A DNA stretch of 64,000 nucleotides from Bergeyella cardium (GTDB taxonomy: Bacteria > Bacteroidota > Bacteroidia > Flavobacteriales > Weeksellaceae), in the NCBI RefSeq assembly GCF_003614945.1, contig NZ_QYCZ01000001.1, positions 638,001-702,000 of the forward strand. Reading direction: 5' to 3'. The notes under the pieces were generated by a model, which searched no databases, was not told the origin of the DNA, and worked only from the letters and a program-made list of their open reading frames with translations. The translations under genes and the position numbers were made by a program. Within the stretch, counting starts at the first letter, position 1, and every line of letters begins with the position of its first letter. Positions 10,470 to 50,200 of this stretch are shown piece after piece.

Positions 10470-10543
10470 AAACAAAAAGAGAGTAATTAAAGGTGGGTAG
10501 ATTAGCAATCCAACACACAGCACATTAATTACTCTTTTCGCTT
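10470..10543 (-). ncRNA. Candidate small hairpin RNA A (or coaX leader)
   Basis: On the minus strand a perfect -7 element TATATTTG (10552-10545) is followed by a 10-bp stem formed by 10534-10525 and 10490-10481. The loop carries TTGGATTGCTAATC and a C-rich ACCCACC, and a T-run follows the stem (A-run at 10474-10478 on plus). The architecture of promoter, one long stem pairing the ends, and U-run suggests an independent RNA of about 70 nt. Because it lies 50 bases upstream of coaX in the same direction it could instead be an attenuator in the coaX leader. Element B has the same plan with a different stem sequence. Confidence 0.55.
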
Positions 10544-10670
10544 GCAAATATAGATAGAATATCAAAAATATCCTAAAAAGGATTGTTACAAAATATAGAT
10601 ATTAGGGAATATATTTGAATTCAATTATTTATAATTATGAAATGGTCTTTCAATTTATACTTAAGGCTTT

Positions 10671-10748
10671 CAAAAAAGAAGACTAATAAAAGCCCTCGTT
10701 GAAGGATAAGTAATCCAATACAGAATCTTTAATTAGTCTTCTCGATCG
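10671..10748 (-). ncRNA. Candidate small hairpin RNA B, paralogue of A
   Basis: AGAAGACTAAT (from 10677) pairs with ATTAGTCTTCT (to 10742), and read on the minus strand the stem ends in a six-T run. The loop shares TTGGATTxCTxATC with element A, and the sequence just outside the stem (CGATCGAGAAG) resembles the same position in A. Stem sequences differ while pairing is kept, which is what covariation between two copies of a structured RNA looks like. A degenerate -7 (TATATTCTG) lies at 10757-10749. It begins shortly after the stop of the aminotransferase gene, so it may also end that transcript. Confidence 0.5.
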
Positions 10749-10809
10749 CAGAATATAAATAAAATTTTTAAAGAATAAATAAAGTATAATGCGGTATAAA
10801 CAATCAGTT

Positions 10810-16321: not shown

Positions 16322-17101
16322 TTAATAATATTCTATGATTCTTTCTGTGATTGTACTTGCCTTTTCTATATCGTTTTCTATTTCGTATTCTATTCTTTGT
16401 GTCCAGTTGTCTTTTTGGTCATAATAGGTGTATCTGTAAGTGAATTTGCGTTCTAAACTTCCATCTTCATTAAACCAGTTTGTCTCTATTAGATTTCCTT
16501 TTTCATCGTATTTGTAAGTGAATTTGCGTTCTAAACTTCCATCTTCATTAAACCAGTTTGTCTCTATTTGATTTCCTTTTTCATCGTATTTGTAAGTGAA
16601 TTTGTCTTCTAAACTTCCATCTTTATTAAAATTGTTTTCCTCAACTTGATTTCCTTTTTCATCGTATTTGTAAGTGTATTTTTTGTCTAGACTTCCATCA
16701 GGATTAAACCAGTTTTCCTCAATTTGATTTCCTTTTTCATCGTATTTGTAAGTGTATTTCCAACATAAACTTCCATCTTTATTAAAATAGTTTCCCTCTA
16801 TTTTGTTTCCTTTTTCATCGTATTTGTAAGTGTATTTCCAATATAAACCATAAAAAAACCTGTTTTTCTCTATTATATTTCCTTTTTCATTAAATAATAA
16901 TTCTTCAATATCACTATCAGATATATCTCCTTTCACCTTCACCGCTTCTCCAAATTTTTCTACGGCTTTATATCGAGTCTCTCTAATTGATTTTACCTTT
17001 CCTTTTAGGTTCATTTCGGTTAAATCATTCTTTTTGTTTTTACAGGAAGCTAAACAAAACATAGCTAAAATAATTGTTAATATTTTTTTCATAATATTCA
17101 A
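16322..17101 (-). CDS. Repeat lipoprotein with 24-residue YDEKGN repeats, copy 1
   Basis: 259 residues. The N-terminus MNIMKKILTIILAMFCLASC ends in a lipobox (LASC), so a lipoprotein is expected; the fourth residue is also Met and could be the start. After a KGKVKSIRET segment come about six tandem units of the type KYDEKGNxIExNxFNxDGSL, one every 24 residues, mirrored in DNA as 72-bp repeats that are identical over long stretches near 16437-16580. The pattern recalls YwqK/MORN-like or RHS-like repeat proteins, but I cannot assign a function. The next gene upstream is a paralogue. Confidence 0.82.
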   Translation of the reverse strand: MNIMKKILTIILAMFCLASCKNKKNDLTEMNLKGKVKSIRETRYKAVEKFGEAVKVKGDISDSDIEELLFNEKGNIIEKNRFFYGLYWKYTYKYDEKGNKIEGNYFNKDGSLCWKYTYKYDEKGNQIEENWFNPDGSLDKKYTYKYDEKGNQVEENNFNKDGSLEDKFTYKYDEKGNQIETNWFNEDGSLERKFTYKYDEKGNLIETNWFNEDGSLERKFTYRYTYYDQKDNWTQRIEYEIENDIEKASTITERIIEYY

Positions 17102-17147: not shown

Positions 17148-17840
17148 TTAATAATATTCTATGGTTCTTTCTGTGATTACACTTGCCTTTTCTATATCGT
17201 TTTCTATTTCGTATTCTATTCTTTGTGTCCAGTTGTCTTTTTGGTCATAATAGGTATATCTGTAAGTCCATTGACCAATTAAAATTCCATCTTTATTAAA
17301 CCTGCTTTTCTCTATTTTGTTTCCTTTTTCATCGTATTTCAAAGTATGTTTAGAGTCTAAATTTCCGTCGTTATTAAACCAGCTACTCTCTATTCGATTT
17401 CCTTTTTTATCATATTTGTAAGTCAGCTTGCCAAATAAACTTCCATCGTCATTAAGCGAGTTTGTCTCTATTAGATTTCCTTTTTCATCATATTTATAAG
17501 TCTGTCTGCTAATTAAATTTCCATTGCTACTAAATAATTTATCCTCTATTTTTTTTTCGTTTTCATCGTATTTATAGATCCATTTAAACTCTAAACTTTC
17601 AATATTAAAGATATTTTTTTCTGTTATATTCCCTTTCTCATCGAATAATAATTCTTCATTAGAATAAATATCACCTTTTACTACTTCCCCAAATTTTTCT
17701 ACGGCTTTATATGGAGTTTCTCTAATTGATTTTACCTTTCCTTTTAGGTTCATTTCGGTTAAATCATTTTTTTTGTTTTTACAGGAGGCTAAACAAAATA
17801 TAGCTAAAATAATTGTTAATGTTTTTTTCATAATATTCAA
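17148..17840 (-). CDS. Repeat lipoprotein with 24-residue YDEKGN repeats, copy 2
   Basis: 230-residue paralogue of the gene just downstream. Signal peptide, lipobox and the first 40 residues are nearly identical, as is the C-terminal block YTYYDQKDNWTQRIEYEIEN. Between them there are five repeats instead of six and their sequences have diverged more. Conserved ends with a variable repeat number suggest tandem duplication followed by repeat expansion or gene conversion. The 46-base spacer before copy 1 is also similar to the upstream leader of copy 2. The product should be anchored in the inner or outer membrane. Function unknown. Confidence 0.82.
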   Translation of the reverse strand: MNIMKKTLTIILAIFCLASCKNKKNDLTEMNLKGKVKSIRETPYKAVEKFGEVVKGDIYSNEELLFDEKGNITEKNIFNIESLEFKWIYKYDENEKKIEDKLFSSNGNLISRQTYKYDEKGNLIETNSLNDDGSLFGKLTYKYDKKGNRIESSWFNNDGNLDSKHTLKYDEKGNKIEKSRFNKDGILIGQWTYRYTYYDQKDNWTQRIEYEIENDIEKASVITERTIEYY

Positions 17841-50087: not shown

Positions 50088-50200
50088 GTTTGGAATAAAA
50101 TCCCGTTGGGGTTAAAGACAAACAACCCTGTTTGTAATAAAACCCTTCGGGGGGTTAAGGAGAAACAACCTTGTTTGTAATAAATCCCCGTGGGGGGGGT
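50088..50200. repeat. Tandem 42/43-bp palindromic repeats
   Basis: Units beginning GTTTG(G/T)AATAAA start at 50088, 50130 and 50173 (spacing 42 and 43). Each contains a short C-run/G-run hairpin (CCCGTTGGGG, CCCTTCGGGG, CCCCGTGGGG), and junctions such as ACAAAC...GTTTGT also pair. The third unit is cut short. It resembles dispersed palindromic repeats of Bacteroidota, but I cannot name the family. Confidence 0.6.

Follow-up and report, generated by a model that had tools for sequence, protein, structure and literature searches.

Within the window, by which is meant the whole 64,000-nucleotide stretch of Bergeyella cardium DNA analysed here, the minus strand carries two hairpins, A and B, in the gap that separates an aminotransferase gene (12009-10810) from coaX (10429-9671), an ORF of 252 aa for type III pantothenate kinase that lies downstream of A. 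Element A (10473-10541) is predicted to be a hairpin RNA of about 70 nt on the strength of its fold z-score, its match to the covariance model R2 described below and its alignment with B. It has a stem of 11 bp (10535-10525 with 10490-10480), the loop motif TTGGATTGCTAATC at 10513-10500 and a tail of five T residues (10478-10474) followed by GTTTT, and its 3' end reads TCTCTTTTTGTTTT. Element B (10671-10745) is likewise a predicted hairpin RNA of some 70 nt and carries the full family core, as judged by its fold z-score, a homologue in a second genome and compensatory changes. Its outer stem (10742-10727 with 10692-10677) pairs at 15 of 16 positions, the exception being a single U-U, and is followed inwards by a bulged A10726, an inner stem (10725-10722 with 10696-10693), a second inner pairing (10721-10720 with 10699-10698) next to the bulged G10697, and an apical stem (10716-10714 with 10706-10704); the loop motif TTGGATTACTTATC lies at 10718-10705, the U-run at 10677-10672, and the 3' end reads TCTTCTTTTTTG. 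Each element forms a single RNA fold, closed by pairing of its 5' end with its 3' end ahead of the U-run. The approximately 130 bases separating A and B (entered at window 10581-10670) contain no ORF and no recognisable element.

A sequence-only reading of this DNA had proposed two minus-strand hairpins of shared architecture, and both are found where it placed them, are homologous and fold beyond what shuffled sequences achieve. RNA folding gave -21.9 kcal/mol for A (z -4.48) and -23.6 kcal/mol for B (z -4.18), with none of 200 shuffles equal in either case; the inner hairpins taken alone fold no better than shuffles. The local alignment of A with B scores 35 against a shuffle mean of 14.6 and maximum of 27, no shuffle in 1000 reaching 35, and by this sequence comparison the two are homologous. 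The proposal that the stems differ and yet pair held for the pairing (11 bp; 15 of 16), less so for the difference, which amounts to two pairs altered on both sides plus mismatches, and because the two stems differ so little A against B alone is weak evidence for a selected pairing. Hairpins as such are not scarce here, loose criteria (a 14-position closing stem with up to two mismatches before a T-rich stretch) giving 68 matches in this AT-rich window. The loop motif TTGGATTxCTxATC, listed in the earlier reading among the features common to A and B, was seen 10 times at two mismatches with 12 expected; it is absent from the third member described next and is not the core of the family. The signal is the similarity of A, B and the third member, and not any single hairpin.

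Three covariance models were used: R1 built from A and B, R2 from B and the third member, and R3 from all three sequences. In its own genome R1 matches A and B, plus their complements, and nothing else. The two-sequence search of related genomes that had been suggested at the outset covered 297 genomes of the family and returned a single additional member, which lies in a different genus (genome G056, L036:1501-1572, minus strand; 42.6 bits, E 1.7e-5). R2, although built without A, recovers A in the window (33.8 bits, E 1.2e-5). The G056 copy is closer to B than to A by far, the B-G056 alignment scoring 60 where the best shuffle scored 35, and the likeness stops at the element ends after about 75 bases, the flanks being no more alike than shuffles; the element is conserved independently of its position. 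It is because of this third member that a small-RNA family can be spoken of beyond the A-B pair, and the earlier view of paralogous structured RNA genes forming a small family is borne out by its occurrence in another genus and by the compensatory changes in its stem.

Alignment of the three copies indicates how the family is built. An outer stem of 11-16 pairs is predicted to double as the terminator stem, and inward of it comes the core, consisting of a bulged A, a UUCU/AGGG helix with two U-G pairs, a bulged G and a GU/AC step, after which a small internal loop leads to a short stem at the apex (GGA/UCC), capped by a variable tip. The 5' core strand AAAGATTCTGTAT (10718-10730, minus strand) is identical in the G056 copy and pairs with the 3' core strand CAACGAGGGCTTTT (10688-10701, minus strand), the CAACGAGGGCTTT part of which is identical there too; what B and G056 have in common is thus AAAGATTCTGTAT...CAACGAGGGCTTTA, on the two sides of the variable tip. 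In B and G056 both core strands are fixed in sequence and the outer stems drift with compensation. In element A the outer stem and apical region persist and the inner part has diverged: the core strand AACGAGGG is gone, the AGGG strand is missing through a 5-nt gap, and the inner helix is not formed. The proposed structure has 91.5% of cells paired in the three sequences vs 40-57% when the partners are slid. Three of its 25 pairs are altered on both sides, a figure that 24 of 500 shuffles reach, and because only three sequences from two genomes are available such covariation counts are small and give support rather than proof. The G056 copy as a whole has a fold z-score of only -2.2. A small-peptide reading was also considered, a 52-codon ORF overlapping B, and was rejected: its frame is broken in G056. 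The tip there carries a 2-nt deletion with both flanking core strands identical to B, and since this would shift any reading frame with the core left intact, a conserved peptide is unlikely.

The consensus TAnnTTTG is the -7 element of the main sigma-factor of flavobacteria. A perfect example by sequence, TATATTTG, stands 5' of A (10545-10552, minus strand), and a -7-like sequence, TATATTCTG, 5' of B (10749-10757, minus strand) is degenerate and weak by itself, just as the sequence-only reading had it; the box of the G056 copy is also degenerate, so that it is perfect in A only. No convincing -33 element exists upstream of A, B or the G056 copy, and the 40-base upstream regions of the three show no significant likeness in alignments set against shuffles. 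A U-rich tail ends all three alike. Element A and element B would each be transcribed from a promoter of its own just upstream, and each transcript would be terminated by its own stem and U-run, to give RNAs of about 70 nt with paired ends.

Searches for further members were wide. R2 was run on 396 genomes from the order, 297 from the family and 395 from the class, and R3 on 321 genomes from the family, the draws overlapping one another; neither model added a credible member. When a search took in over 40 genomes, scoring was confined to the 12-16 best candidate places in each and to strict filters, under which R2 leaves A unreported even in its own genome, and for that reason diverged members will have been missed; among the species sampled the family is rare. 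Three matches were set aside, G421 being a plain terminator lacking the core and so a chance match, G506, which scored lower, probably another, and G109 an ATGA-rich low-complexity hairpin, again with no core. In viral contigs five core patterns found chance matches or coding sequence only and one A-specific pattern found no match; blastn against phage and plasmid collections gave short chance matches only. A loose pattern run on genome contigs matched at least 120 stretches, and among the matches listed none had the family stem. Rfam 15 at the gathering score yields only two tRNAs in the whole window, and the suggested comparison of A and B with Rfam, Flavo-1 included, came to nothing at that score, the weak matches (E up to 10) lying far below gathering.

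The G056 copy of the RNA has ribBA upstream, transcribed in the same direction, and on its other side the 3' end of a restriction operon that converges on it; its own strand has no gene downstream. The operon (G056:C12 about 234150-238950; L165:8153-12948) comprises a methylase gene that is a clear Eco57I-type match, a second methylase gene below the Pfam cut-off, and a gene for a GIY-YIG/ResIII protein, with T5orf172 (GIY-YIG) and ResIII (helicase) domains. Its spread through the family is patchy, with a full or partial match in 14 of 198 genomes. Two congeners of G056 have ribBA at this locus and lack both the operon and the RNA, and on this account the RNA is accessory there, lying in an insertion. 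A 71-codon hydrophobic ORF (L036:1630-1845, minus strand) separates the RNA from ribBA.

Several other accounts of A and B need to be weighed. Given that both lie on the coaX strand and resemble intrinsic terminators, that the U-run of A ends 44 bases ahead of the coaX start codon and that the interval contains no clear promoter, A (with B preceding it) might be taken for 5'-leader attenuators whose read-through sets coaX expression, as was originally suggested. As a role for the family this is rejected because the G056 homologue faces the 3' end of a convergently transcribed restriction gene and has no gene to serve downstream on its strand, and because coaX in relatives has no such element: coaX homologues of 51-80% identity in 24 relatives from the same family are without an arrangement of the A/B type, coaX in relatives mostly stands close behind an aminopeptidase-like gene and otherwise behind another gene, and a search of 26 relatives' loci found no hairpin of the A/B kind upstream of coaX. 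The placement next to coaX is accidental, and we regard the leader account as unlikely; A alone could still limit read-through into coaX as a leaky terminator, because its U-run ends so close to the start codon. Slightly less likely again is that the two hairpins are plain terminators and nothing else, B ending the aminotransferase transcript, whose stop codon lies 64 bases before it on the same strand, and A insulating coaX. Stems with U-runs would suit such a role and AT-rich hairpins before T-runs are common in the window, but a terminator has no need of a 40-nt loop holding 26 conserved core bases, and between B and G056 it is the terminator stem that differs and the inner core that is identical, whereas selection for termination would leave the opposite pattern.

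The sporadic spread of the element, its transplantation as a unit of about 75 bp, and the G056 copy's nearness to a restriction operon and to the 71-codon hydrophobic ORF could all be read as signs of a mobile-element or defence RNA, whether a type I or III antitoxin or a guide-like RNA, with its protein partner elsewhere or lost. This seems improbable to us, given that the two loci share no protein neighbour and that no Rfam antitoxin or abiF family matches the elements. A partnership with the G056 restriction system in particular was rejected, since the B. cardium genome (G000) has no matches to the restriction proteins at E 1e-5, the small ORF having been included in the same query, and no such RNA adjoins the system in six further genomes that carry it. 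That the hairpin is a folded DNA site, for integration or as a single-strand origin, and no RNA at all is scarcely credible: although a unit transplanted between unrelated flanks, forming an imperfect hairpin with bulged bases, might look like one, the U-rich tail ends the same strand of the element in all three copies, the -7 box of A is perfect and correctly placed, and no recombinase gene adjoins either locus in the stretches read.

The account that we consider fairly probable is that A and B are tandem, independently transcribed RNAs of about 70 nt belonging to a rare, accessory family outside Rfam, with the core as a probable binding site. The functional part would be the core, AAAG-A-UUCU-GU / AC-G-AGGG-CUUU, carried on the terminator stem, and it would most likely be bound by a protein, the variable tip being free to differ. 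A conserved core that is bulged and paired suggests, on the modelled structure, binding of a protein or ligand more than an exposed antisense seed, because the conserved bases pair together, with bulges and U-G pairs. Base-pairing in trans through the variable tip is possible; for the start regions of 54 genes in the window the best predicted duplexes are no better than those of shuffled RNAs. Element B would retain the core, and its paralogue A, having lost it, may differ in specificity or be in decay. The family has probably moved horizontally and would spread as single transplanted units into differing genomic places. A more specific version, in which an RNA cassette of about 75 bp has its bulged helix as the recognition site of a putative RNA-binding or RNA-guided protein and is transferred among flavobacterial genomes separately from that protein, is one to which we give little weight. 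The RNAs may have a regulatory role.

Known systems resemble the elements in part. IS10 RNA-OUT and similar RNAs are antisense RNAs of about 70 nt, made from their own promoter and folded as one long bulged hairpin; the size and the single bulged hairpin are alike, but neither the A/B nor the G056 locus is overlapped by a transposase gene or an antisense partner gene. Flavo-1 RNA (Rfam RF01705) is likewise an uncharacterised small RNA of the Bacteroidetes and gives no match to A or B up to E 10. FopS and GibS of Bacteroides thetaiotaomicron, for which horizontal spread has been proposed, are multicopy, paralogous, independently transcribed intergenic sRNAs of the same phylum (PMC11697453); by description, however, FopS has an exposed 5' seed and 14 members (PMC11697453), whereas A and B are two copies whose 5' end is locked in the terminator stem and whose conserved bases are paired. 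The Rfp sRNAs are structured independent sRNAs of the Flavobacteriales, and Rfp18 of Flavobacterium psychrophilum, with several stem-loops, is conserved widely in its genus (PMC9723704), which by description sets it apart from a family with no member found in 396 genomes of the order.

Flavobacterial small RNAs have been catalogued only sparsely, and A, B and the G056 copy make up a family that is new and rare, although ordinary in kind. It offers a compact and testable case of which protein or ligand keeps a folded core of 26 bases fixed while the stem around it drifts.

Elsewhere in the window there are tandem repeats. Arrays of a 78-bp unit lie at 16430-16837 (5.2 copies at 87%) and 17256-17576 (about 3.4 copies at 73%), the unit length being a multiple of 3 and perhaps reflecting a repeat protein; an AT-rich array with 63-bp (21-bp) units occupies 1146-1291, and a 43-bp unit, GTTTGTAATAAAACCCCGTGGGGGGTTAAAGACAAACAACCCT, is repeated 2.6 times at 50088-50197.
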